Shown here in pieces: positions 73-63,837 of a stretch of 64,000 nt of DNA; positions within the stretch are counted from its first letter, which is position 1; each line of letters begins with the position of its first letter. The notes beneath the pieces were generated by a model. It did not search any database. It was not told the DNA's origin and was given only the letters and a program-made list of their open reading frames with translations. The position numbers and the translations under genes were made by a program. The DNA is taken from positions 310,001 to 374,000 of the forward strand of contig NZ_JAUSXC010000001.1 of assembly GCF_030823405.1 (NCBI RefSeq), given 5' to 3'. The DNA comes from Chryseobacterium ginsenosidimutans (GTDB lineage Bacteria > Bacteroidota > Bacteroidia > Flavobacteriales > Weeksellaceae).

Positions 73-2199
73 ATGAAGAAATTACTTCTGTTGACTATTT
101 TATTTGTGTCACAATTGTTTTTTTCACAATCAGATTGCGCAACGGCAATTCCCGTATGTGGAAATTCAAATATTTCTTATGACCCTACAGGTCCCGGAAC
201 TGTAGTAGATTTTCCAGGACCGCCAGACCCTGTTCCTGATGGCCTTTGTCTTAAAGGAGGAGAACATTATTCGGTTTGGTACACATTTACTGTTGCCACA
301 TCAGGAACAATTACTTTTGAAATCACTCCAAATGTTAACGTTGCGCTAGGTCCAGATGCTCCTGGAAACTCTGCCGATTATGACTGGGCAGTTTGGGGAC
401 CGAATCCTACTTGTGGAAATTTAGGACTTCCTGTAACTTGTAACTTTGCAGGGATGACAGGTACATGGCCAAATCCTACGGGATTATCCGCCAACCCACC
501 TAGTGCTCCCAATCCAGGCTATAATGCTCCGATGAATGTAACAGCTGGCCAAACATACGTTTTAGTAGTTGATAACTATAGCCATAATACTCTAGGATTT
601 TCTTTAACTTGGGGTGGAACAGCGACTATTTCTTCTGCTTTTACAGATCCTACTTTAACACCTCATCCATTTATACCACCAGGATCACCAGCAGCAAACC
701 CAGCAGATCCAAACGAAATTCTAAAATGTTCGTTACCAACGATGTTTGATTTCAGTACGTTATCAACCGGAATTATTAATGGTAATCCAAACTTCACAGT
801 ATCATATCATTTAACAAGTAATGATGCTATCACAGGAAACGCTCCTATCACAACACCAATAATGGTAAATGGAACGACTATCTATTATTACAGATTAAAA
901 TATACAGATCCTACAAACCCAACCAATCCTATTAATGGTTGTTTCCAGATTGGAAAATTCAAATTCAGAACAGGAAATATTACAGCACAGGATGCAACCC
1001 TTACTGCATGTAACAACAATGGTGCTGGAACTGCGACATTCAATCTTGCATTAGCTGCCGTCTTTACAGGAAATAATATCACTAAAAAATATTATCCTAC
1101 AATGGCAGATTTAATAGCAGTAACTAATGAAATCACAAATCCTTCAGTTTATGTATCTAGTGAGAAAAAAGTATATGTAAGAGTAACAACTTCAGATGGA
1201 TGCTCTGATGACGCTGAGATTACCCTAGCATTCTTCCCTGTTGTTGTAGTAACAGAAGCCACTCTTGAATCTTGTTATATTGAAACGGCAGTAACAACAG
1301 CTTCATTTGACCTTACGACTGCGACGGTGAATTCTCAAGCCGGAATGACTAAAAAATATTACAAAACGCAGGCTGATGCTTTAGCAGCAGTCAATGAGAT
1401 TTCACCTGCAAATAACTATATTACAGCAACGACTACTGTTTATGCAAGAGTAACCAGTGAGAATGGCTGTTTTGCCATTGCAAAAATTAACTTAAAAGTT
1501 TTACCTCCTGTAAAATCTAACGTTCTGATAGATAAAATCATCTGTATGGAAGACACTACAGTTTTAGATGCAGGACCAGGATTTGACGGCTACGAATGGA
1601 ACACGGGAGCAACAACTCAATCTATTTCAAATGTAGGTGCAGGTGCCTATTGGGTAAAACTAAAAACAGGAAAATGCTATACATTACAGCTAGTGAATGT
1701 ATACGCTTCTGCACAACCTGTTATTACTAATATTGAAATCACCAACGATTCGTTTACAGTAACTGTTAATGGAGGAAAAGCACCTTACAAATACTCTTTA
1801 GACGGAATTACTTGGCAAGATTCTAATGTATTTACAGGTCTTCCGAGAGGTGAAAATAAAGTGTACGTAAAAGATGCTTATGACTGTAACCCGATTGAAG
1901 TTCAGGTAACAGTTCCAAATCTTCTGAACGCAATTACACCAAACGGAGATAATAAGAATGACTATATTGATTATTCAGCATTAGCTTATAAGAAAAATCT
2001 TGTATTTACGGTTTACGATAGATACGGAAATATGCTATACCAGGCTGATAAAATCAGAAACTTTACATGGGACGGAACTTCAGGTGGTAAGAAAATCGTA
2101 ACAGGAACTTACTGGTACACGATCTCGTGGAACGAAAATGATAAAAACAATACCCAAACAAAATACAGCGGTTGGATATTGGTAAAAAATATAGAATAA
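73..2199 (+). CDS. Secreted protein with T9SS type B C-terminal sorting domain
   Basis: 708 aa. An N-terminal signal peptide (about residues 1-18, ending FFSQS) precedes a Cys/Pro/Gly-rich globular region (about 20-200) unlike the lectin domain of the three paralogues downstream. Two tandem beta-rich modules follow (about 305-392 and 393-483), each built as DATLxxC...KKYY...VYVRVT...GC. The C-terminus (about 620-708) starts with ITPNGDNKND and continues YDRYG, W-D-G-T, TGTYWYTI and SGWILVKN, the type B (gliding-motility-associated) sorting signature recognised by the type IX system. The protein is therefore predicted to cross the outer membrane and be surface-attached or released. Function beyond surface exposure or adhesion is not clear. 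The start is the ATG that yields the signal peptide; no good promoter is visible in the 40 bp between the upstream terminator and the ATG. Confidence 0.85.
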   Translation: MKKLLLLTILFVSQLFFSQSDCATAIPVCGNSNISYDPTGPGTVVDFPGPPDPVPDGLCLKGGEHYSVWYTFTVATSGTITFEITPNVNVALGPDAPGNSADYDWAVWGPNPTCGNLGLPVTCNFAGMTGTWPNPTGLSANPPSAPNPGYNAPMNVTAGQTYVLVVDNYSHNTLGFSLTWGGTATISSAFTDPTLTPHPFIPPGSPAANPADPNEILKCSLPTMFDFSTLSTGIINGNPNFTVSYHLTSNDAITGNAPITTPIMVNGTTIYYYRLKYTDPTNPTNPINGCFQIGKFKFRTGNITAQDATLTACNNNGAGTATFNLALAAVFTGNNITKKYYPTMADLIAVTNEITNPSVYVSSEKKVYVRVTTSDGCSDDAEITLAFFPVVVVTEATLESCYIETAVTTASFDLTTATVNSQAGMTKKYYKTQADALAAVNEISPANNYITATTTVYARVTSENGCFAIAKINLKVLPPVKSNVLIDKIICMEDTTVLDAGPGFDGYEWNTGATTQSISNVGAGAYWVKLKTGKCYTLQLVNVYASAQPVITNIEITNDSFTVTVNGGKAPYKYSLDGITWQDSNVFTGLPRGENKVYVKDAYDCNPIEVQVTVPNLLNAITPNGDNKNDYIDYSALAYKKNLVFTVYDRYGNMLYQADKIRNFTWDGTSGGKKIVTGTYWYTISWNENDKNNTQTKYSGWILVKNIE

Positions 2200-4650: not shown

Positions 4651-6906
4651 ATGAATAAAAAAAACTATCTTTTTTTGTTTGTAGGTCTTTTGCTGTGTTT
4701 TTCGCAACATCTTACTTCTCAAACATACCAACTAACAGGAACTCCTATAAATACCACAGGATGGACGATGGTTTCTCCTACAGTAGTAGGAACAGGAGGA
4801 GACTTCATCCAGCTTACTCCTGACACCAACAACCAATCCGGATCTATCAGGTTAAATGACCCCATCAACCTGAAATATTGCGACAAATGGAAAGTAGAAT
4901 TCGATTTCAGAATGGATTCTAACCAAACCGCCAACGGAGATGGTATTGCCTTTTGGTATCTGCAAAATCCGCCGGTGGCAAGTGTCTTAGGTTCAGGTCT
5001 TGGCGTTTCTCAAAACGCAATCGGTCTTGTTGTAGGATTTGACACTTACAACAACACTACCACAGCTGTAATGAGTAAAGTACATGTCGGTTATGGGCAA
5101 ATAGCCAACACAACAGACAGCAACAACGTAGAGTTTTTCAATACCGCAGGAAGTTCTTTCCACTCACCGGACATGAATACGACTCTTCCTTTTCAGGGAA
5201 CTACGTATAAACATGTTGAAGTTACATCACAAGTCGTTCCAGGTACTCAAAACTGGATGATAAAAATTACAATTGATGGTAATTTAATCTGTAATCAGTC
5301 TTTTGCGCCTGCAGGTGCTGCAGCTTCAATGACTGTAGGATATTTCGGATTTTCAGCTTCTACAGGAGGAAATAGATCAAGACATTCTATTAAAAACGTA
5401 AAAGTTTTTGTAGATAAAGTAGCGCTTAACCAAACGACTGTAACAGATACTTTCTGTCCGAATCCTACGACAGGACAAGGGACAGTTAATTTAACAGCTT
5501 ATCAAAACCAATTCGTAACGAATCCTGCAAATTATACATTCTCATACAGTGTTTCAGGAACTCCGATTACGAATCCTACCAGCTATCAGTTCAGTGCAAA
5601 TACAGCAGTCTCTGTCTTAATTAAAGATAATGCCGGAGTTCTTTGTGATAACCCTGACGGAAAAATACAACTGAATCTTTCCCCGTTTACAGCTACACCT
5701 GCTACGCTTACCGAGTGTAACAATAATAATGCAGGAACAGCAACTTTCAACCTAGCTCTTGCCAATGTAAACGAGCCACCAGGTTCTGTGAAAAAGTATT
5801 ATAAAACTTTAGCAGACCTTAATGCAGGAACGAATGAGATCGGTAATTTTGCGACTTATATTTCAGCACCGACAACGGTATATGTAAAAGTAACTACTCC
5901 ACTTGGATGTCAAGGTTCTGCTCCAATTACATTAGCATTCTTCCCTGCAATCGTATCTAACGATGCAACGATAGAGTCTTGTTTTATCGAAAGTACTCCT
6001 ACAACAGCATTATTTGATTTAACTCAGGCGAATGTAACTTCAGCACAGGGTATCACCAAAATATATTACAAAACTCTGGCTGATGCACTAGCGGGAACTA
6101 ATCCTATTGGACCTACGACAGCTTACATCGCGACATCATCAACAGTGTATGTAAGAATTACAAATGTTGCAAATTGCTTTATCATTGTTAAAATAACTCT
6201 GAAAGTTTTACCGCCGATTTATTCTTCAGTTCTGAAAGATAAAACCATCTGTATCGATGCCGAAACAACTCTCGACGCAGGAGCAGGATTCGATACCTAC
6301 CTATGGAGTACAGGCGCTACGACACAATCTATTCAGAATGTTACTCCCGGTCTTTACTGGGTACAGCTGAAATCAGGAAGATGTACAACAATGCAGCTTG
6401 TAAAGGTAAATCCAGCACCTCAACCTGTAATTTCCAGTATTGATATCACAAATAATACAATTACCGTAAATGTAATCGGAGGAAAAGTACCTTATCAATA
6501 TTCTTTAGATGGGATAAACTGGCAGGATTCTAATGTATTCACAGGGCTTGCAAGAGGTGAAGTTGTGGTGTATGTAAGAGATTCTTATAACTGTACACCA
6601 ATTCACGTACAGATTACGGTTCCGAATCTTATCAACGCAATCACACCAAACGGAGATAATGTAAATGATGTGATTGATTATACAGCTTTAGCATACAAGA
6701 AAAATTTAGTTTTCACGATCTATGACAGATACGGAAATAAATTGTATGAAGCCAACAAACTAAGAAATTACAAGTGGGACGGAACAGCAGGCGGCAAAAA
6801 AGTATCCACAGGAACCTACTGGTACACTATCACTTGGAATGAAAACGACAAAAATAATACTCAGACAGTCTACAATGGTTGGGTATTAGTAAAAAATATC
6901 GAATAA
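4651..6906 (+). CDS. L-type lectin domain protein with T9SS type B sorting domain (paralogue 1)
   Basis: 751 aa. Signal peptide (about 1-23, ending LTSQT). Residues about 24-255 match a bacterial L-type (legume-like) lectin fold: INTTGW, DFIQLT, NLKYCDKWKVEFDFR, DGIAFWYLQNP, GLVVGFDTYNN and GYFGFSASTGG are all typical. A beta module (about 256-346) and two repeat modules (about 347-434 and 435-526) follow, then a Cys-containing module (DKTICIDAE...LDAG) and the sorting domain from ITPNGDN (about 662) to GWVLVKNIE. The protein is predicted to be exported by T9SS and displayed on the surface, where the lectin could bind glycans; the ligand is unknown. It is first of three tandem paralogues (with 7101 and 9616) that differ in module number. 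Confidence 0.88.
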   Translation: MNKKNYLFLFVGLLLCFSQHLTSQTYQLTGTPINTTGWTMVSPTVVGTGGDFIQLTPDTNNQSGSIRLNDPINLKYCDKWKVEFDFRMDSNQTANGDGIAFWYLQNPPVASVLGSGLGVSQNAIGLVVGFDTYNNTTTAVMSKVHVGYGQIANTTDSNNVEFFNTAGSSFHSPDMNTTLPFQGTTYKHVEVTSQVVPGTQNWMIKITIDGNLICNQSFAPAGAAASMTVGYFGFSASTGGNRSRHSIKNVKVFVDKVALNQTTVTDTFCPNPTTGQGTVNLTAYQNQFVTNPANYTFSYSVSGTPITNPTSYQFSANTAVSVLIKDNAGVLCDNPDGKIQLNLSPFTATPATLTECNNNNAGTATFNLALANVNEPPGSVKKYYKTLADLNAGTNEIGNFATYISAPTTVYVKVTTPLGCQGSAPITLAFFPAIVSNDATIESCFIESTPTTALFDLTQANVTSAQGITKIYYKTLADALAGTNPIGPTTAYIATSSTVYVRITNVANCFIIVKITLKVLPPIYSSVLKDKTICIDAETTLDAGAGFDTYLWSTGATTQSIQNVTPGLYWVQLKSGRCTTMQLVKVNPAPQPVISSIDITNNTITVNVIGGKVPYQYSLDGINWQDSNVFTGLARGEVVVYVRDSYNCTPIHVQITVPNLINAITPNGDNVNDVIDYTALAYKKNLVFTIYDRYGNKLYEANKLRNYKWDGTAGGKKVSTGTYWYTITWNENDKNNTQTVYNGWVLVKNIE

Positions 6907-7100: not shown

Positions 7101-9362
7101 ATGAAAAAATTACTCTTTTATTATTTTTCTATCATTTTCGTTTGTCTTACAGGAAAACTTTCTGCACAGACTTATCAGCTCGTAGGAAACCCTGTAAATA
7201 TTACGGGATGGGACCTCGTCTCCAACGCCTCTGTAAGTGGGGATTTTATACAGCTTACCCAAGATATAGGAAACCAGTTTGGTGTTGTAAAACTCTCTAC
7301 CCCAATTAACCTTAAATATTGTGATAAGTGGAAAGTGGAATTCGATTTTAGAATCGACGGTAACGGAACTACACAATTTGGAAGAGGTGACGGTTTTACA
7401 TTTTGGTATCTAAGCAATCCGCCTACAGGATTTACCAGCGGAGGCGGTCTTGGTATACCTGCAAATGCAAATGGATTAATGGTCGGTTTTGACATCTTTA
7501 ACAATACCACGGAAGGACAGATGAGTAAAATCCATGTTTTATACGGAACCAATAATCTACCTGTCGGAAACAATAATATTGAATATAATACTACTGCAGG
7601 AAGTACTTTTCACTCAGCAGATTTAAATCCTACACAACCATTTGTGGGCTCTACCTACAAACACGTTATTGTTAATGGTGAGATGGACCCAACAAATACA
7701 AATATCTGGAATATTAAAATTCAGCTAGATGGAGTATTAATTGTTGATCAGCCATTTACAGCATCAGGAGGAGCAATCGGGATGACTACCGGCTATTTCG
7801 GGTTCTCCGCAGCTACAGGAGGAGCAAGCGCAAGACATTCTATTAAAAATGCTAAAATTTATATTGATAAAGTTCCAATTTTAACAAATACAGTTACCCC
7901 TTTTGTTTGTGTAAATCCTGCAACAGGAAACGGAACAGTAGATTTGACATCTTTCCAAAACCAGTTTGTAACGAACCCTGCAAATTATGTTTTTACATAT
8001 CTTGGACCTGGAGGAGTACCAATCACCAACCCTACAAATTATCAATATTCAACAGGAACAACAAATGTTACGGTAATTGTAAAAGATCCGTCATCTACAC
8101 TTTGTGACAACGGAGACGGAAAAATAGTATTAACACCCACTCCTTTTGCAGCAAGCGATGTAACATTGACCGGCTGTAATAATAACAATGCAGGAGGAGC
8201 TATATTTGATCTTACTGCAGCGGCTTTATCTTCAGTTCCGGGGAGCACATCTGTGTTCTATAATACAATGTTTGATCTTAATAACCATATTAATCCTATT
8301 ACCAATCCTTCAGCTTATCTTTCTCCGGCAGCAACAATTTTTGCCCAGGTTACAACTCCACTGGGTTGTACGGATGTCGCACAGATTACATTAGCTTTAT
8401 TTCCGGTTGTAGAAGTGCAGGAAGCCACTTTAAGATCTTGCGCGATTGAAACAAAACCTTCAACAGCTTTATTTAATCTTACAACAGCTACAGTAACATC
8501 ACAAACAGCTACTAAAAAATACTACCCTTCTTTAGCTGATGCACAAAATGGTACTAATGAAATTTTAACACCAATCACATACATCTCTCCAAATGGAGTA
8601 ATATATATCAAAGTGATCAACGGAAACGGATGTTATGCTATTGCTAAAGTTAATTTAATTGTAATTCCTCAGGTATTTTCAAATACTCTGGAAGACAAAA
8701 TAATCTGCATGGAAGACAATACAACTCTGGATGCAGGCCCAGGATTTACAAGCTACCAATGGAGCACAGGCGCAACAACACAAACCATCACGAATGTAAC
8801 AGTAGGTACATATTGGGTTAAATTAAAAACAGGAGATTGCGTGACAACACAAACAGTGAAAGTTTATGCAGCAGATCAGCCTGTGATTACAGCTGTTGAC
8901 ATTTCAAATACAACTGTTACAGTTTACGTAAATGGAGGTACTCCACCTTACAAATATTCAATGGACGGAATCAAGTGGCAAAATTCTAATGTATTCAAAA
9001 ATGTTCCGAGAGGTGATAATCATATTTTCGTAAAAGATGCTTATGATTGTGATCCGATCGATATTACAATAGTAGTTCCGAACATAATTAACGTTATTAC
9101 GCCAAATGGTGACGGAATTAATGACGTAATAGATTATTCGGCTCTTGCAGGCAAACAAAATCTTGTATTTAATATATTCGACAGATACGGAGCAAAAATT
9201 CATCAGGCTGACAAATCAACCAAATACAAATGGGACGGAACAGCAGGAGGTCGAAAAGTACCTACAGGAAGTTACTGGTATTCTGTTTCATGGAATGAAA
9301 ATGACAAGAAAAATACACCAATCAAATATTCAGGTTGGATTCTTGTAAAAAACAGAGATTAA
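7101..9362 (+). CDS. L-type lectin domain protein with T9SS type B sorting domain (paralogue 2)
   Basis: 753 aa with the same architecture as its left neighbour. Signal peptide (about 1-22, ending KLSAQT); L-type lectin domain (about 24-258; NLKYCDKWKVEFDFR, DGFTFWYL, GYFGFSAATGG); one beta module (about 259-349); two DATLxxC-type repeat modules (about 350-439 and 440-529); the DKIICMEDNTTLDAG module; and the type B sorting domain from ITPNGDGIND (about 665) to SGWILVKNRD. Its C-terminal quarter is closer to paralogue 3 than to paralogue 1 (shared IINVITPNGDGINDVIDYSALAGKQ-like wording and NRD end), pointing to recent duplication or gene conversion between the last two. No clear TAnnTTTG box is visible in the 150 bp upstream. 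Confidence 0.88.
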   Translation: MKKLLFYYFSIIFVCLTGKLSAQTYQLVGNPVNITGWDLVSNASVSGDFIQLTQDIGNQFGVVKLSTPINLKYCDKWKVEFDFRIDGNGTTQFGRGDGFTFWYLSNPPTGFTSGGGLGIPANANGLMVGFDIFNNTTEGQMSKIHVLYGTNNLPVGNNNIEYNTTAGSTFHSADLNPTQPFVGSTYKHVIVNGEMDPTNTNIWNIKIQLDGVLIVDQPFTASGGAIGMTTGYFGFSAATGGASARHSIKNAKIYIDKVPILTNTVTPFVCVNPATGNGTVDLTSFQNQFVTNPANYVFTYLGPGGVPITNPTNYQYSTGTTNVTVIVKDPSSTLCDNGDGKIVLTPTPFAASDVTLTGCNNNNAGGAIFDLTAAALSSVPGSTSVFYNTMFDLNNHINPITNPSAYLSPAATIFAQVTTPLGCTDVAQITLALFPVVEVQEATLRSCAIETKPSTALFNLTTATVTSQTATKKYYPSLADAQNGTNEILTPITYISPNGVIYIKVINGNGCYAIAKVNLIVIPQVFSNTLEDKIICMEDNTTLDAGPGFTSYQWSTGATTQTITNVTVGTYWVKLKTGDCVTTQTVKVYAADQPVITAVDISNTTVTVYVNGGTPPYKYSMDGIKWQNSNVFKNVPRGDNHIFVKDAYDCDPIDITIVVPNIINVITPNGDGINDVIDYSALAGKQNLVFNIFDRYGAKIHQADKSTKYKWDGTAGGRKVPTGSYWYSVSWNENDKKNTPIKYSGWILVKNRD

Positions 9363-9615: not shown

Positions 9616-11610
9616 ATGAAAAAAAACTACCCTTTTCTATTTTTCATTTTTTTACTCTCTTTTTTTAGCAGACTTTCTTCACAAACTTACCAGCTTACAG
9701 GATCTCCCATTAACACCACAGGATGGACAATGGTAGCCCCAACAGTAATAGGAACCAGTGGAGACTTCATCCAGCTAACTCCCGATGTTAATGACAACTC
9801 CGGATCGATTCGTCTGAATGAACCTATTAATCTGAAATATTGTGACAAATGGAGAGTAGAATTCGACTTCAGAATGGATTCCAACCAAACTTATAACGGT
9901 GACGGAATTGCGTTTTGGTATCTTCAAAATCCACCAATTGCAAGCGTTTTGGGTTCCGGAATCGGCGTTTCCCAGAATGCAATAGGCTTAGTTGTAGGTT
10001 TTGACTCTTACAACAACGCTTCAGGAAGTTCAGGAATGAGTAAAATACATGTCGGCTATGGGCAAATTGCCAATACAACAGACACCAACAACGTAGAATT
10101 CTTCAATGTTCCGGGAAGCTCTTTTCACTCTCCCGACCTTAATGTAAGCCACCCATTTCAGGGAACGACCTACAAACACGTTGAAGTAACAGCTGAAGTA
10201 GATCCTGCAGCTCCCGCAAACTGGATCATAAAATTAACTCTCGACGGCGCATTGATCTGCAATCAGTCTTTCGCTCCTTCAGGTGCCGCAGCAGCTATGA
10301 CAGTGGGATATTTCGGGTTTTCGGCTTCCACAGGAGGAGCAAGATCCAGGCATTCTATTAAAAACGTAAAAGTTTTTGTAGACAAAATCCCTCTTCTTCA
10401 AGCTGCAATTACAAAAAACATCTGTCCCGATCTTACCGGAATGGCAACGGTTGATTTAACATCATTCAATCCCCAGCTAACGGCAACTCCTGCCAATTAT
10501 AATTTCACGTATTTTACAGGAGGAGCCCCAATTACTAATCCTGCCAATTTCCAATACAGTGCCGATACTAATGTTTCAGTAATCATCAAAGATCCGACAC
10601 AGGTATTGTGCGATAATAACGACGCTACAATAACATTAAAAGTTGCTCCAACAGTTACAACAACAGACGCTTCTTTAAGATCTTGTTTTATCGAAACAAA
10701 TCCTTCCACAGGGCTCTTTAACCTTACAACAGCATCGGTAATAGGCACTTCAGGAGTTACCAAAGAATATTATCCTTCTTTAACAGATGCTCAGAATCAA
10801 ACAAATGCAATTTCAAATCCCATCAACTATATTGCACCGACAGGAGTTGTTTACATCAGAGTAAGCAATGCTTTCGGATGTTTTGATATTGCTAAAGTTA
10901 CATTACAGGTCATTTCTCAGGTTTTTTCTAATGTTTTGGAAGACAAAATCATCTGTATCGAGAACACGACAACCTTGGATGCAGGTCCCGGATTTACGGC
11001 CTACGAATGGAGTACAGGTGCTACCACACAGGCAATTCATAATGTAGGAGTAGGAACCTATTGGGTAAAACTCAAGACAGGAGAATGTATCACTACCCAA
11101 GGCGTAAAAGTATATGCCTCTGAACAGCCCGTGATTTCGAGTGTTGATATTTCAGAAAACACCGTTACAGTACATGTTTTGGGAGGAACTCCTTCTTATC
11201 AGTACTCAATGGATGCAGTTCATTGGCAGGATTCAAATGAATTCAAAAATGTTCCGAGAGGTGACTCTAAGATCTACGTGAAAGACGCTTACGACTGCGA
11301 GCCGATTGACATTACCATCTTAGTTCCTAACCTCATCAACGTGATTACTCCCAATGGAGACGGAATTAACGATGTGATTGATTATTCGGCTCTGGCAGGA
11401 AAACAGAATCTTGTATTCAGCATATTCGACAGATACGGAGCGCAGATTCACAAAGCTGACAAAGAAAACAAATACAGATGGGACGGAACCGTGGGCGGAA
11501 GAAAAGTGCCTACCGGAAGCTATTGGTTCTCCGTTTCATGGAACGAAAATGACAAGAAAAATACACCTTTTAAATATTCAGGCTGGATTCTTGTTAAAAA
11601 CAGAGACTAA
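9616..11610 (+). CDS. L-type lectin domain protein with T9SS type B sorting domain (paralogue 3, one module shorter)
   Basis: 664 aa. Signal peptide (about 1-22, ending RLSSQT), lectin domain (about 24-258, closest to paralogue 1: INTTGWTMV, VLGSGIGVSQNAIGLVVGFD, HVGYGQIANTTDTNN), one beta module (about 259-348), a single DASLRSC repeat module (about 349-440), the DKIICIENTTTLDAG module, and the sorting domain from ITPNGDGIND (about 576) to SGWILVKNRD. It is 89 residues shorter than paralogue 2, which is the size of the one missing repeat module. Its N-terminal half resembles paralogue 1 and its C-terminal half paralogue 2, so it looks like a mosaic. Predicted surface lectin or adhesin; ligand unknown. 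Confidence 0.88.
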   Translation: MKKNYPFLFFIFLLSFFSRLSSQTYQLTGSPINTTGWTMVAPTVIGTSGDFIQLTPDVNDNSGSIRLNEPINLKYCDKWRVEFDFRMDSNQTYNGDGIAFWYLQNPPIASVLGSGIGVSQNAIGLVVGFDSYNNASGSSGMSKIHVGYGQIANTTDTNNVEFFNVPGSSFHSPDLNVSHPFQGTTYKHVEVTAEVDPAAPANWIIKLTLDGALICNQSFAPSGAAAAMTVGYFGFSASTGGARSRHSIKNVKVFVDKIPLLQAAITKNICPDLTGMATVDLTSFNPQLTATPANYNFTYFTGGAPITNPANFQYSADTNVSVIIKDPTQVLCDNNDATITLKVAPTVTTTDASLRSCFIETNPSTGLFNLTTASVIGTSGVTKEYYPSLTDAQNQTNAISNPINYIAPTGVVYIRVSNAFGCFDIAKVTLQVISQVFSNVLEDKIICIENTTTLDAGPGFTAYEWSTGATTQAIHNVGVGTYWVKLKTGECITTQGVKVYASEQPVISSVDISENTVTVHVLGGTPSYQYSMDAVHWQDSNEFKNVPRGDSKIYVKDAYDCEPIDITILVPNLINVITPNGDGINDVIDYSALAGKQNLVFSIFDRYGAQIHKADKENKYRWDGTVGGRKVPTGSYWFSVSWNENDKKNTPFKYSGWILVKNRD

Positions 11611-58932: not shown

Positions 58933-59586
58933 ATGAAGAATACATTTTTAGGCGTTATTGCCATCTCGATACTCACAGTTTCTTGTAAAAAAGACGAAAG
59001 AGCAACCTATTTAACAGAAGAAGCAGGCATTCAACAACCTGCTGTTGCAGTGAATAACGCTCCGAAACCTTCTCTTCTGGATCAGGCTGGAGTTCAACCG
59101 AATCAAAATGTAGCTTCTCCTGCAACAGCAGTTACTGCACCCGGAATGAATCCACCTCACGGACAGCCAGGTCACAGATGCGATATTCCTGTTGGGCAAC
59201 CTTTAAACAGTAAACCAGCTCCAACTCCGCAACAGGGAAATCAAAATATAACAGTTAACGCCAACCAAGGTCAAACCGTACAAATTGACCCCAATTCCAT
59301 GCAGCCCGGGAAATTCACCGTTGAAAATGGAAAAGCAAAAACTATAAAAACGGCTCCCGGAATGAACCCTCCACATGGTGAACCAGGACACAGATGCGAC
59401 ATTCAAGTTGGGCAGCCTTTGAATAGCAAACCGGCTCCGGCTCCACAACAAGTACAAACAATAGCTCAAAATACACCAGTTCCCGCTCCAACACCTGCAC
59501 CTACAGGACCAAAGCCTGCATTAAACCCTGCTCATGGTGAGCCTTGGCATAATTGTGCAGTAAAAGTTGGAGAAACATTACCATAA
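58933..59586 (+). CDS. Lipoprotein with three His/Cys repeat motifs (HGxPxHxC)
   Basis: 217 aa. Lipoprotein signal (lipobox LTVSC, Cys18), then Pro/Ala/Gln-rich, mostly disordered sequence. It carries three repeats: residues 69-97, 141-169 and 196-217. Each has the core PGMNPPHGxPGHRCDIxVG or the variant LNPAHGEPWHNCAVKVG; the invariant residues are H76/H81/C83, H148/H153/C155 and H201/H206/C208. The HxxxxHxC spacing suggests a metal or haem ligand set, but no assay-based function is known to me for this motif. It lies between a two-component system and a metal-binding TonB receptor locus. Probably on the periplasmic or outer membrane side. Confidence 0.8.
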   Translation: MKNTFLGVIAISILTVSCKKDERATYLTEEAGIQQPAVAVNNAPKPSLLDQAGVQPNQNVASPATAVTAPGMNPPHGQPGHRCDIPVGQPLNSKPAPTPQQGNQNITVNANQGQTVQIDPNSMQPGKFTVENGKAKTIKTAPGMNPPHGEPGHRCDIQVGQPLNSKPAPAPQQVQTIAQNTPVPAPTPAPTGPKPALNPAHGEPWHNCAVKVGETLP

Positions 59587-59604: not shown

Positions 59605-59973
59605 GTGAAGCTATTTCAGATCATAGCCATTATCTTCTGCTTGGGAATTTTTTTAATTCCCAAAGATAATTTCTATGCTCAAAATACGCAGGAAACATGC
59701 TGTAAAACAGATTCAGGAATGAATTGTTGCAAAAATGATCACAAACAGCATTCTAAAGATAATCAAAACAAAAAAGAACAAAAATCTTCTTGTAATGATG
59801 ACTGTTGCTCAATCTGTGTTGCCTGTTATACTTTTATAGAAACTCCATTTTCAAAGAGTCTGCAACTGGAAATTTCTTATTATAAATCAAATAAAAATTT
59901 ACAGTTTCAATATTCTGATCCGCGTATTTCAGATCGTTTGAAAGAGATTTGGCAACCGCCGAAAATAGTTTAA
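59605..59973 (+). CDS. Small secreted Cys/His-rich protein
   Basis: 122 aa, GTG start 5 nt after a -7 box. Signal peptide (about 1-25, ending NFYAQ). The mature N-terminal half is rich in Cys, His and Lys: CCKTD, MNCCKNDHKQH, SSCNDDCCSICVACY (ten Cys in about 45 residues). The second half ends DRLKEIWQPPKIV. The layout (secreted, CC pairs, terminal PP) resembles small proteins often found beside TonB receptors in Bacteroidetes, but I cannot place it firmly in a family. Together with the HMA-type receptor that follows after 66 nt, metal binding in the periplasm is the simplest inference. Confidence 0.72.
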   Translation: MKLFQIIAIIFCLGIFLIPKDNFYAQNTQETCCKTDSGMNCCKNDHKQHSKDNQNKKEQKSSCNDDCCSICVACYTFIETPFSKSLQLEISYYKSNKNLQFQYSDPRISDRLKEIWQPPKIV

Positions 59974-60039: not shown

Positions 60040-62718
60040 ATGAAATTATATATTTCCAGGATTATTCTTGGTGTATTCTTATTATCTACACAACTTATAT
60101 TCGCTCAAAACTTTTCTAAAAACCAGTTCAAAGTAAAAGGAAACTGCGAAATGTGCAAAGAAAGGATTGAAAGCACAGCCAAAAAAGCAGGTGCAAAAGA
60201 AGCAAGATATTCTATTGATTCACAAATTTTAACCTTAGAAACCGAAGACAATATTTCTCCCGATGAAATATTGAAAAAAGTTGCAGAAGCCGGTCATGAC
60301 AATGAAAAATTCAAATCATTAAATGAAAATTATGAAAGTCTTCCTGAATGTTGTCATTATGAAAGAAATTTGCAATCTTCAAGTGTAGAAAACCACGATC
60401 ATCAATCAAAAAAAGAGAATGAATTTTATGTAAAAGGAAACTGCGAATCCTGTAAAGCAAGAATTGAGAAAGCAGCAAAAGATGCCGGAGCAGATTCTGC
60501 AGAATGGAATGCAGAAAAACAGTTGGTTACTTTAAATTTTGATTCTTCAAAAACTTCATCAAATAAAATTTTAAAGAAAATCGCAGAGGTTGGTCACGAC
60601 AACGAAAAGTATAAATCAAAGGATAATACTTATAAAAATTTGCCTTCATGCTGTCTTTACGACAGAGAAATTCCTTTTGGTGAGGCTAATCCGAAAGTAC
60701 ATTTTGAAGAAGGTGAAAAATCTGAACATTCCGATCACAACGATCATAATTCTTCAGATGAAAATAATGAAAAACACATTGAAGGAATTACTGTAACAGG
60801 ATCAAAAGCCGCAACTTCCCTAAACAAAAAAGAAGCAGGCCTTGTTTTCAACATTGACAGAAAAGAATTATTAAAAGCAGCTTGCTGTAATTTATCCGAA
60901 AGTTTCGAAACCAATGCAACTGTTGATGTTTCTTTCAGCAATGCTGTTACGGGAACAAAACAATTGAAAATGCTTGGTTTAGATCAGAAATACACAAGCT
61001 TAACGAAAGAATTGTTGCCAGAAATCAGAGGTCTTGCTTCAGCGTATGGTTTAAATTTCATTCCCGGAAGATGGATTGAAAGCATTCAGTTAACAAAAGG
61101 CGGAAGTACGGTTACAAACGGTTATGAAAGTATCACAGGACAAATAAATACCGAGTTTTTAAAAAATGCAGAAAAGCCTGAAACTTCATTGAATCTTTTT
61201 GCAGATTTTAATGGAAGAGCAGAAGCCAATATCACCAGTGTTTCCCGTATCGACGACAAATGGTCGCAAACTTTTTTACTTCATGGAAACGGAACTTTTG
61301 GGGATACAGACATGAACAATGACGGTTTTCTTGATCGTCCGAAAGGAACTCAGATAAACGCAGCCTATTTATTGAATTATAATGATCTGGAAAAATCAGG
61401 ATTCGGTTCTCATTTCGGAATTAATTTCATTAAAGACGAAAGAACAGCCGGACAAATCGGATTTAATAAAAATATAGACCAAAAAGAACAGTCACTTTAC
61501 GGAGTCGGAATCGATATTTCAAGATTTCAGGTTTGGAATAAAACAGGATATGTCTTTAAAGGAAAGCCTTATCAAAGTTTGGGGTGGATGAATCAGTATA
61601 CTTTCCATCAGCAGGACAGTTTCTTCGGTTTGAGGAATTATTCCGGAAAGCAACAGACTTATTATTCAAATTTAGTTTTTGAAAGTATTCTAGGAAATAC
61701 CAACCATAAATATAAAGCCGGAGCAAGCTTTATGTATGACGGTTACGATGAAACTTATTTAAAAGATAATTTTAAGAGAAACGAAATTGTTCCGGGAATT
61801 TTTGCAGAATATACGTTAACAGGCTTAAAATATACTTTAGTTGCCGGAGGCAGAGCTGATTTTCACAATTTGACCGGAACACAATTTACTCCAAGATTGA
61901 ATTTTAAATATGATTTTACTCCACAGACTATTTTGAGACTTTCTGCAGGAAGAGGTTTCAGAACGGCGAATGTTTTTGCGGAAAGCCAGCACTATTTTGC
62001 GTCAAACAGAAGTATTCAAATCTTACAAAACGGTGGAAATATCTATGGTTTAAAACCTGAAATTGCCTGGAATTACGGAGCAAGTTTACAACAAGAATTT
62101 AAAATTTTAGGAAGAAAATCTACCATTGTTGCAGACTTTTTCAGAACAGATTTCCAGGATCAGGTTTTAGTGGATTTAGACCGTTCACCTCAACAATTGA
62201 CTTTTTACAATTTAGAAGGAAAATCTTTCGCCAATTCTTTTCAAACGCAGTGGGATTTTATGCCTTTCAAAAACTTTGATGTAAGATTAGCTTACAAGTA
62301 TTATGATGTTCAGGCAGATTATCTGGCTGGAAGAAGAGAAATTCCGTTTATGGCAAAACACAGAGGCTTTGTAAATCTGGCGTATTCAACCAACAAAAAT
62401 AAAAACGGTGGATTTTGGAGTTTTGACACGACTTTAAATTGGGTTGGAAAACAAAGACTTCCCAACACTTCAAGCAATCCGGAAGAATTTCAGTTACCAA
62501 CACATTCTGAATCTTACGCTGTTTTGAATGCACAGATTTCGAGAAATTTCAATAAAAAGATCAGAGCCTATTTAGGTGGTGAAAATTTGACTTCTTACTA
62601 TCAAAAAAATGCGATCGTTGATTTTAAAAATCCGTTCGGTAATTATTTTGACGGCGGAATGGTTTATGCGCCGATCATGAAAGCTAATTTCTATGTTGGA
62701 TTGGATGTTACTTTTTAA
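60040..62718 (+). CDS. TonB-dependent receptor with two N-terminal heavy-metal-binding (HMA) domains
   Basis: 892 aa. Signal peptide (about 1-22, ending IFAQ). Two tandem HMA modules follow: first C36-x-x-C39 (KGNCEMCKE, about 28-110), second C135-x-x-C138 (KGNCESCKA, about 127-210), each ending in a CC motif (LPECCHYER and LPSCCLYDR). A His-rich linker follows (about 222-247; HSDHNDH). Then the plug: GITVTGSKAATS, KAACCNLSESFETNATVDVSFSNAVTG (cysteines again), GYESITGQINTE, and a 22-strand barrel ending in VGLDVTF. HMA domains bind soft metals, chiefly Cu(I); receptor fusion suggests copper or similar metal uptake or sensing at the outer membrane. Preceded by a small Cys-rich secreted protein. 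Confidence 0.9.
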   Translation: MKLYISRIILGVFLLSTQLIFAQNFSKNQFKVKGNCEMCKERIESTAKKAGAKEARYSIDSQILTLETEDNISPDEILKKVAEAGHDNEKFKSLNENYESLPECCHYERNLQSSSVENHDHQSKKENEFYVKGNCESCKARIEKAAKDAGADSAEWNAEKQLVTLNFDSSKTSSNKILKKIAEVGHDNEKYKSKDNTYKNLPSCCLYDREIPFGEANPKVHFEEGEKSEHSDHNDHNSSDENNEKHIEGITVTGSKAATSLNKKEAGLVFNIDRKELLKAACCNLSESFETNATVDVSFSNAVTGTKQLKMLGLDQKYTSLTKELLPEIRGLASAYGLNFIPGRWIESIQLTKGGSTVTNGYESITGQINTEFLKNAEKPETSLNLFADFNGRAEANITSVSRIDDKWSQTFLLHGNGTFGDTDMNNDGFLDRPKGTQINAAYLLNYNDLEKSGFGSHFGINFIKDERTAGQIGFNKNIDQKEQSLYGVGIDISRFQVWNKTGYVFKGKPYQSLGWMNQYTFHQQDSFFGLRNYSGKQQTYYSNLVFESILGNTNHKYKAGASFMYDGYDETYLKDNFKRNEIVPGIFAEYTLTGLKYTLVAGGRADFHNLTGTQFTPRLNFKYDFTPQTILRLSAGRGFRTANVFAESQHYFASNRSIQILQNGGNIYGLKPEIAWNYGASLQQEFKILGRKSTIVADFFRTDFQDQVLVDLDRSPQQLTFYNLEGKSFANSFQTQWDFMPFKNFDVRLAYKYYDVQADYLAGRREIPFMAKHRGFVNLAYSTNKNKNGGFWSFDTTLNWVGKQRLPNTSSNPEEFQLPTHSESYAVLNAQISRNFNKKIRAYLGGENLTSYYQKNAIVDFKNPFGNYFDGGMVYAPIMKANFYVGLDVTF

Positions 62719-62967: not shown

Positions 62968-63837
62968 ATGTCGCAAACTCTTGTTTTTGAAGATAATTAT
63001 AAAAAGTTTGGACTCAATGTATTTTCTAATGAAAATCTTGAAGTTATCGACAAAATAAAGTCTCAACCCTATATAAAAATACTTTTTGTTCCTGCAGATT
63101 ACGAAATTACTGTAGATTTCAGCCATTATAAAACTGAAGCCCCCACTTTATTCTTCCTTACTTATCAGTATTTGAATATTAAAAACGGAAGTTCCGACAA
63201 CGCTTCTCTACTTTATTATAATAGAGACTTTTACTGTATTCAAATCCATGATAAAGAAGTAGCTTGTGACGGATTGCTTTTTCATAATATTTTTGAAATT
63301 CCGAAAATTGATCTTGATGATTCTGAAACTTTTATCATTAAAAATTTATTTCAAAGCATAAAAGAAGAGCTCGAATGGAAAGAATCTTCAAGCGAAGAAA
63401 TGATTAGAACTTATTTAAAACAACTCATCATCCGTGCCACCAGAAAATGGAAAAAACAAAATATTGACAATGACAATGTGAAAATTCCAAGCAATGAACT
63501 GGATATTTTCCGTAATTTCAGCCGACATCTCGAAATTCATTTCAGAGAAAAACACAATGTTGCAGATTATGCTGAATTACTGCATATTGCACCCAAAACA
63601 TTAACTCACAAATTCAAAAGTTTAAACTTAGAATCTCCCAACCAGTTTATCATTAACAGGATCTTGTTGGAAGCGAAAAGATTATTATTTTACACAGATA
63701 AACCTGTTAAAGAAATTGCCTATGATCTTGGTTATGAAGATCCGGCTTATTTTAACCGGATTTTTACCAATAAAATCGGAAGTACACCGACAAATTTCAA
63801 GAAAAATTACATTTCGGGAAAAAAGTACAATAGTTAA
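62968..63837 (+). CDS. AraC-family transcriptional regulator
   Basis: 289 aa. N-terminal sensing region (about 1-180) of cupin-like type without a clear ligand motif, then two HTH motifs in the C-terminal 100 residues: NVADYAELLHIAPKTLTHKFK (first, about 197-217) and VKEIAYDLGYEDPAYFNRIFT, which with GSTPTNF is the AraC signature. It is followed by an OsmC-type gene with its own promoter. Target unknown; regulation of the adjacent osmC-like gene is plausible. Confidence 0.9.
   Translation: MSQTLVFEDNYKKFGLNVFSNENLEVIDKIKSQPYIKILFVPADYEITVDFSHYKTEAPTLFFLTYQYLNIKNGSSDNASLLYYNRDFYCIQIHDKEVACDGLLFHNIFEIPKIDLDDSETFIIKNLFQSIKEELEWKESSSEEMIRTYLKQLIIRATRKWKKQNIDNDNVKIPSNELDIFRNFSRHLEIHFREKHNVADYAELLHIAPKTLTHKFKSLNLESPNQFIINRILLEAKRLLFYTDKPVKEIAYDLGYEDPAYFNRIFTNKIGSTPTNFKKNYISGKKYNS

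Follow-up and report, generated by a model that had tools for sequence, protein, structure and literature searches.

The window examined here is a stretch of 64,000 nucleotides from Chryseobacterium ginsenosidimutans, and the gene under study is an open reading frame (ORF) at 60040..62718, which encodes a TonB-dependent receptor of 892 residues with two N-terminal units of the heavy metal-associated (HMA) type. The assignment draws on the ORF, on Pfam and on homologs. An earlier note on this DNA had drawn attention to the gene, and we found the ORF intact at the position given there; it and all features placed below lie on the + strand. A signal peptide (residues 1–22, 60040..60105) is predicted from the sequence, and the structure model places a helix at residues 2–19. 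Unit 1 (residues 29–108, 60124..60363) and unit 2 (residues 128–208, 60421..60663) are both recognized by Pfam, by a custom hidden Markov model and in the structure model. Each carries a CxxC motif, C36 and C39 (60145..60156) in unit 1 and C135 and C138 (60442..60453) in unit 2, and each has a CC tail, C104/C105 (60349..60354) and C204/C205 (60649..60654), those of unit 2 being assigned from the cysteine positions. The tails begin 68 residues after C36 and 69 residues after C135, in keeping with the spacing of about 70 described in the note. The linker that follows (residues 210–258, 60667..60813) had been called His-rich, which is fair only in a mild sense (histidines at 221, 230, 233, 236 and 246); it is probably disordered, the predicted local distance difference test score (pLDDT) being below 50 at residues 221–253. 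As the note had also read, the plug starts with a CC pair (C282/C283, 60883..60888), here within the motif ACCNLSESFET in a poorly modelled region, and the remainder forms a β-barrel (residues 346–892, 61075..62715) according to Pfam, the structure model and Foldseek. The receptor has no cysteines beyond these ten, which fall into five pairs, and none lies in the barrel.

In the Pfam search that the note had proposed, the HMA profile PF00403 matched two stretches of the receptor with 39.8 bits (cut-off 24.8, E 5.9e-10) and the barrel profile PF00593 matched with 95.3 bits (cut-off 27). The plug profile PF07715 scored 17.3 bits against a cut-off of 23.9, which the relatives L064 (26.1) and L070 (36.9) exceed (loci are given by L numbers). 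No carboxypeptidase-like domain was found in the window receptor by Pfam. The two HMA units are 54% identical, and their alignment score of 220 is far above that of 500 shuffles (mean −15, s.d. 11.5, maximum 20), so that they form a true internal repeat, as the note had supposed. Since profile, fold and repeat score agree, we rejected the idea that the cysteine motifs arose by chance. A one-genome oddity or a frameshift artefact was likewise rejected, because 117 of the 120 homologs listed have both HMA and barrel domains in precomputed Pfam assignments and the lengths of all of them are similar. Identity to the window receptor ranges from 84% to 93% among the 119 other homologs listed, and those with an organism name belong to Chryseobacterium. 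Some sources name homologs ‘outer membrane receptor ... / copper chaperone CopZ’, and several name such receptors iron or ferrienterochelin receptors. The architecture is thus already visible to annotation pipelines; as far as we searched, it is undescribed.

Unit 1 modelled alone had a mean pLDDT of 95.7. The 90-residue model adopts the metallochaperone fold over residues 2–67, and the CxxC motif opens helix 1 of this ferredoxin-like structure. In the full-length model (mean pLDDT 78.8, predicted template modelling score 0.65), both units gave ten-residue block means of 79–93 and most of the barrel exceeded 80, whereas much of the plug (280–287, 292–330) fell below 50. The CC tail lies beyond the aligned range in 44 of the 50 structure matches listed, which we do not take as proof of a novel fold. 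Foldseek finds the barrel to resemble FepA/PfeA, BtuB and OprC alike, so the fold does not name a substrate; siderophore and cobalamin receptors make up most of the nearest solved barrels, and OprC (6z8u) follows at rank 36 with a template modelling (TM) score of 0.72 by target length.

Conservation sets both the units and the plug apart. Across extended units the CC tail and the CxxC motif are equally invariant (66/66 aligned for each), and on this measure the extended unit is not a plain HMA domain, a point that the note had overlooked. The plug CC pair is kept in 76/76 aligned receptors from the phylum sample described below. At least 61 of 65 aligned receptors keep His 415, His 523 and His 609 of the barrel and Met 311 of the plug, which makes these residues candidates for a substrate site. 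The 892 residues of the receptor contain neither CxxxM nor HxM, and in the absence of this copper site we rejected membership of the OprC type.

To place the fusion in a wider context, we rely on a phylum sample, which we regard as the fair one. A whole-protein search of 296 Bacteroidota genomes gave matches in 184, from which 77 strong ones were taken (our own and 76 others). The receptor of one locus, L106 in genome G146, is broken into two frames and was left out of the 76-receptor alignment. Counting neighbours at a threshold of 80 bits (50 bits in the tree analysis), we found the unit fused twice in 7 orthologs, fused once in 3, encoded as a separate neighbour in 45 and absent from the fetched flanks in 21. 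The seven double fusions come from our own genome, five others of its genus and one of its family. All 45 separate unit genes are on the strand of the receptor and 40 lie within 200 bp. The unit is therefore fused or adjacent in 55 of 76 orthologs across Bacteroidota, and the arrangement is not peculiar to the window receptor, which the note had likewise overlooked. Among the 21 loci scored as lacking the unit, five end 206–530 bases past the gene downstream (L049, L079, L098, L103 and L111), and in L093 an HMA neighbour of 55 bits, too weak for the 80-bit threshold, was counted in the tree analysis. The unit was found in none of 20 control loci around other receptors of the phylum (25–28% identical to the query, same script); a 21st control stretch, L119, held no receptor match, and control stretches L121, L129 and L135 are cut by contig ends. 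At the genome level, 69 of 77 genomes that encode the receptor have a strong unit match (E 1e-22 or better), versus 19 of 219 others (Fisher p 2.7e-40, kinship ignored). The strong threshold matters here, because 253 of 296 genomes give weaker matches to the unit profile. Overall, the fused-receptor arrangement is real, ordinary within its own genus and widespread.

In the family to which the window belongs, the arm query has matches in 191 of 197 genomes, spread over 26 of 28 genera. In 20 family loci, chosen as one or two per listed genus and not at random, the arm has one unit in 6, two in 13 and three in 1; next to three of the one-unit receptors a further unit is encoded separately. Units 2 and 3 of the three-unit receptor (L180 5917–8925) are identical over the aligned unit and, by this identity, are a recent duplication. 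A second list, the named loci, holds the best 80 of 583 confirmed and is biased, since the query included the arm; the presence of the unit in 80/80 is to be read accordingly. Among the named loci, N-terminal fusions occur in records of Chryseobacterium, Kaistella, Soonwooa, Epilithonimonas, Cloacibacterium, Elizabethkingia, Amniculibacterium and Bergeyella, and also in Pedobacter, Chitinophagaceae and Flammeovirgaceae assemblies. Separate units are found in Flavobacterium, Tenacibaculum, Polaribacter, Winogradskyella, Formosa, Flavivirga, Myroides and Empedobacter. The tally of eight single fusions in this list includes L248 (3947–6430), which we do not count as a fusion: in this metagenome assembly there is no stop codon between the receptor and the downstream HMA gene, leaving the unit at the C-terminus, and the read-through may be an assembly error or a C-terminal fusion. 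An arm-free tree of 170 receptors (FastTree, with several long branches; L043, L220, L223, L227, L245 and L260, whose motif was missed by the pattern, and L106 were left out) requires at least three changes of the fused state, two of them forced by well-supported branches. This tree cannot tell gain of the fusion from its loss, and a tree of the units, with few columns, resolved little. The arm is followed by a carboxypeptidase-like domain in L064 and L070, which favours separate fusion events without proving them.

From fold and gene context, copper is our best guess for the metal. Away from the receptor, the extended unit turns up in metal systems. In L266 it forms the C-terminal domain of an efflux adaptor (136 bits to a resistance-nodulation-division (RND) adaptor model, cut-off 94.9) that adjoins a CusA/CzcA-family pump (775.6 bits, cut-off 701), and in L278 it stands alone beside a pump of the same family (757 bits). 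L268 and L269 look like L266, a likeness of appearance without scores. L267 encodes a fusion of the unit with DUF3347, next to a copper P-type ATPase (617 bits, cut-off 397). Our own genome likewise has a DUF3347 fusion. A copper ATPase (593 bits) belongs to the same cluster, as does a multicopper oxidase that scores 374 bits to the copper-resistance oxidase model, below its cut-off of 479, and has Pfam Cu-oxidase domains that pass. The P-type ATPases of L063, L093, L112 and L267 pass the copper model and also, with lower scores, the cadmium model. A Csp1-like protein lies near the receptor in L080, under the cut-off of its model. Taken together, the pumps and the adaptor fit copper and zinc-type systems alike, and the ATPases favour copper. 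For the receptor itself, the best CopZ matches in NCBIfam (32.8 bits, cut-off 95; 30.2 bits, cut-off 91) and the MerP model TIGR02052 (12.9 bits, cut-off 92.55) all stay below cut-off, as does the best mercury model (26.6 bits), and its NCBIfam matches up to E 1 include no copper-receptor family.

A further component outside the Chryseobacterium group is a small protein of the HYC_CC_PP type, a family identity tested on L059 (90.1 bits to the NCBIfam model, cut-off 28). These proteins, like the P1B-type ATPases, were first counted by motif; HYC-type proteins were then counted again with a custom profile from four seeds, which finds them in 59 of 77 receptor loci versus 0 of 21 control stretches and in none of the seven double-fusion loci. 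In the window, the slot held by HYC_CC_PP in other lineages is occupied by a Cys-rich small protein ending IWQPPKIV (59605..59973, +), encoded 66 bp upstream of the receptor and found at position −1 in 7 loci. A TAnnTTTG box, which we take to be of the Bacteroidota type, stands shortly before its GTG start, and a similar protein ending IWQPPKIS lies beside the DUF3347 fusion in the organism's own copper cluster (L112 12409–12801). Next to it, 58933..59586 (+) encodes a lipoprotein-like protein of 217 residues with repeated PPHGxPGHRCD units, present in 7 loci (upstream of the receptor in six, downstream in one); neither Pfam nor NCBIfam matched it at E values up to 1. A scan for promoters and terminators gave 23 promoter-like sites (13.9 expected) and 4 terminator-like ones (2.6 expected), with no clear operon signal.

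Several side observations concern genes near the receptor or elsewhere in the window. The gene immediately upstream of the receptor encodes a membrane protein with an HMA domain in L058 (8235–8969; Pfam HMA and MauE) and, by resemblance, in L061 (4900–5679). AraC-type proteins with an HMA-like ‘NMVCxRC’ N-terminus occur in L063 (2459–3049), L112 (15872–16435), L113 (7566–8126) and L080 (5414–5980). They adjoin a copper ATPase in L063 and L112 and a likely, unscored one in L113; in the proteins of L063 and L112 Pfam detects the helix-turn-helix part alone. They are possibly copper-sensing regulators. Four large proteins close together in the window (73–2199, 4651–6906, 7101–9362 and 9616–11610) share a similar C-terminal region (‘NGD..ND.IDY’).

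The receptor and its bead-like units, with a separate bead in many relatives, point to a putative system for metal uptake, probably of copper. We favour the reading, at a probability of roughly 0.57, that the receptor is an outer-membrane copper importer with a built-in periplasmic metallochaperone. Since the N-terminus of TonB receptors is periplasmic, the arm would lie on that side of the membrane. By analogy with the receptor family, a copper ion or complex would cross the barrel through TonB-driven movement of the plug. The invariant cysteine pair at the start of the plug would take the metal and pass it to the arm, whose ligands, to judge from conservation, may comprise the CxxC motif, the His of a GHD motif and the CC tail. 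The arm could then buffer the metal and give it to periplasmic acceptors. In the 45 sampled orthologs with a separate neighbour, the unit is a protein of its own, encoded next to the receptor; in the window receptor it is tethered and doubled. The note had proposed that the arm hands metal on or senses it; profile, fold, conservation and gene context lend weight to the first of these ideas and bear neither way on sensing. More tentatively, and at somewhat less than even odds, the ACC-plug receptor, the extended HMA unit and, outside the Chryseobacterium group, HYC_CC_PP may constitute a widespread copper-acquisition system of Bacteroidota with a cysteine relay from the plug to a string of chaperones. 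In Chryseobacterium and the nearest genera, one to three beads would be welded on, uniting import and trafficking in one polypeptide.

A number of observations weigh against copper import. No unit was found in the flanks of 21 of 76 receptors, and 8 of 77 receptor-bearing genomes lack a strong unit match anywhere. P1B-type ATPases, identified by motif, are rare near the receptor (2/77 phylum loci, L063 and L093; 0/80 named loci). The plug at about 280–330, including its CC pair, is poorly predicted. The unit occurs in efflux loci and hence may serve detoxification. This makes the strongest rival, itself unlikely, a copper sponge or safety device, in which the arm would bind and hold Cu(I) at the outer membrane to confer resistance, or would feed efflux, while the barrel imports a siderophore, chalkophore or other chelate. 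The efflux-adaptor tail, the CusA/CzcA-family neighbour, the DUF3347 proteins beside copper P-type ATPases and the predominance of siderophore and cobalamin receptors among the nearest barrels all fit such a device; it is harder to reconcile with a unit that stays with this receptor type, being absent from the 20 control receptors, and with a plug that has its own invariant CC pair.

The identity of the metal is a related question. The L266 adaptor scores alike to CzcB/NccB (121.5 bits, cut-off 319) and to CusB (117 bits, cut-off 390), and the model of the adjoining pump spans both CusA and CzcA, so this context does not single out copper. The scores of our own DUF3347 fusion, none of which reaches its cut-off, are 26.8 bits each for the MerP and MerT/CopZ models and a lower 23.1 for CopZ. 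The unit has its fold in common with MerP and zinc-ATPase domains, which turn up in searches, and CxxC domains that traffic Cu(I) also bind Zn(II) in vitro, according to the available text of PMC3763678. Even so, a soft or borderline metal other than copper (Zn, Ag, Hg or Cd) seems to us quite improbable, given that the ATPases by the unit or receptor score higher to the copper than to the cadmium model and that the window protein scores higher to CopZ than to any mercury model. The position of the adaptor between CusB and CzcB and the silence of the tree on gain or loss led us to lower the odds for a copper importer and for the wider acquisition system and to raise those for another metal or for redox work. 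A role for the arm in sensing metal load or gating the receptor, with metal binding altering TonB coupling or signalling to a regulator, is less probable again. Other TonB receptors carry signalling domains at their N-terminus, and an AraC-type regulator gene (62968–63837) follows the receptor here and in L007, L008 and L009, but not in L010, L011 or L012; the Pfam and NCBIfam matches include no STN or anti-sigma domain, and a tethered sensor is less easily reconciled with a unit that 45 of 76 orthologs encode separately. That the cysteine pairs carry out disulfide exchange and bind no metal is the least credible of these alternatives. All ten cysteines are paired, and a TlpA-like gene, recognized by its WCGPC motif alone, adjoins the receptor in L064 and L070, but such neighbours are few (7/77 loci), and the unit has a metallochaperone fold and sits in metal systems elsewhere.

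If copper import through this receptor is correct, Bacteroidota of a large and common group would possess a copper importer of their own, its chaperone attached or encoded next door, and would offer a directly testable case of metal passing from a TonB plug to a chaperone. It would also supply a hypothesis of function for receptors now named iron or ferrienterochelin receptors. Copper acquisition across the Gram-negative outer membrane is poorly known, and the portions of the literature seen name OprC, CrtA and methanobactin receptors (PMC8610252, PMC12914433). Titles and abstract openings in the open-licence PMC literature gave no description of an HMA–TonB receptor fusion or of HYC_CC_PP, ‘HMA’ and ‘heavy metal-associated’ are absent from the main text of the CrtA paper (PMC12914433), and ‘copper’ is absent from the main text of a transcriptome paper on F. 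psychrophilum.

Comparison with known systems brings out both the likeness and the difference. OprC, the copper TonB-dependent transporter of Pseudomonas aeruginosa (PMC8610252, in the text available), is like the window receptor in its TonB dependence and similar barrel fold (6z8u), and copper import is proposed for the latter. The OprC copper motif is CxxxM-HxM (PMC11213822, in the part accessible); the window receptor has instead cysteines in its plug and arm. CrtA/BfrG of Bordetella pertussis carries out TonB-dependent copper uptake linked to oxidases, again a proposal for our receptor, and its orthologs, unlike the window receptor, lack conserved Cys or Met in the account given by the excerpts of PMC12914433. 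In the flavobacterium Bizionia argentinensis, BaCopZP1–3 are exported HMA proteins called copper chaperones, which may include a separate form of the extended unit; as far as the sections of PMC11213822 seen extend, they are not linked to a receptor as the window arm is, and an OprC-like receptor is proposed there for copper, other TonB proteins being without OprC similarity or motif. The window unit has the fold of CopZ, Atx1 and MerP over residues 2–67 of the 90-residue model, with CxxC opening helix 1, and differs from them in its invariant CC tail, in being exported, tandem and receptor-fused, and in scoring far below the CopZ and MerP cut-offs. The CusB/CzcB-like adaptor of L266 carries the extended unit as a C-terminal HMA domain, as the window arm does at the N-terminus of a receptor, but belongs to an RND efflux system.
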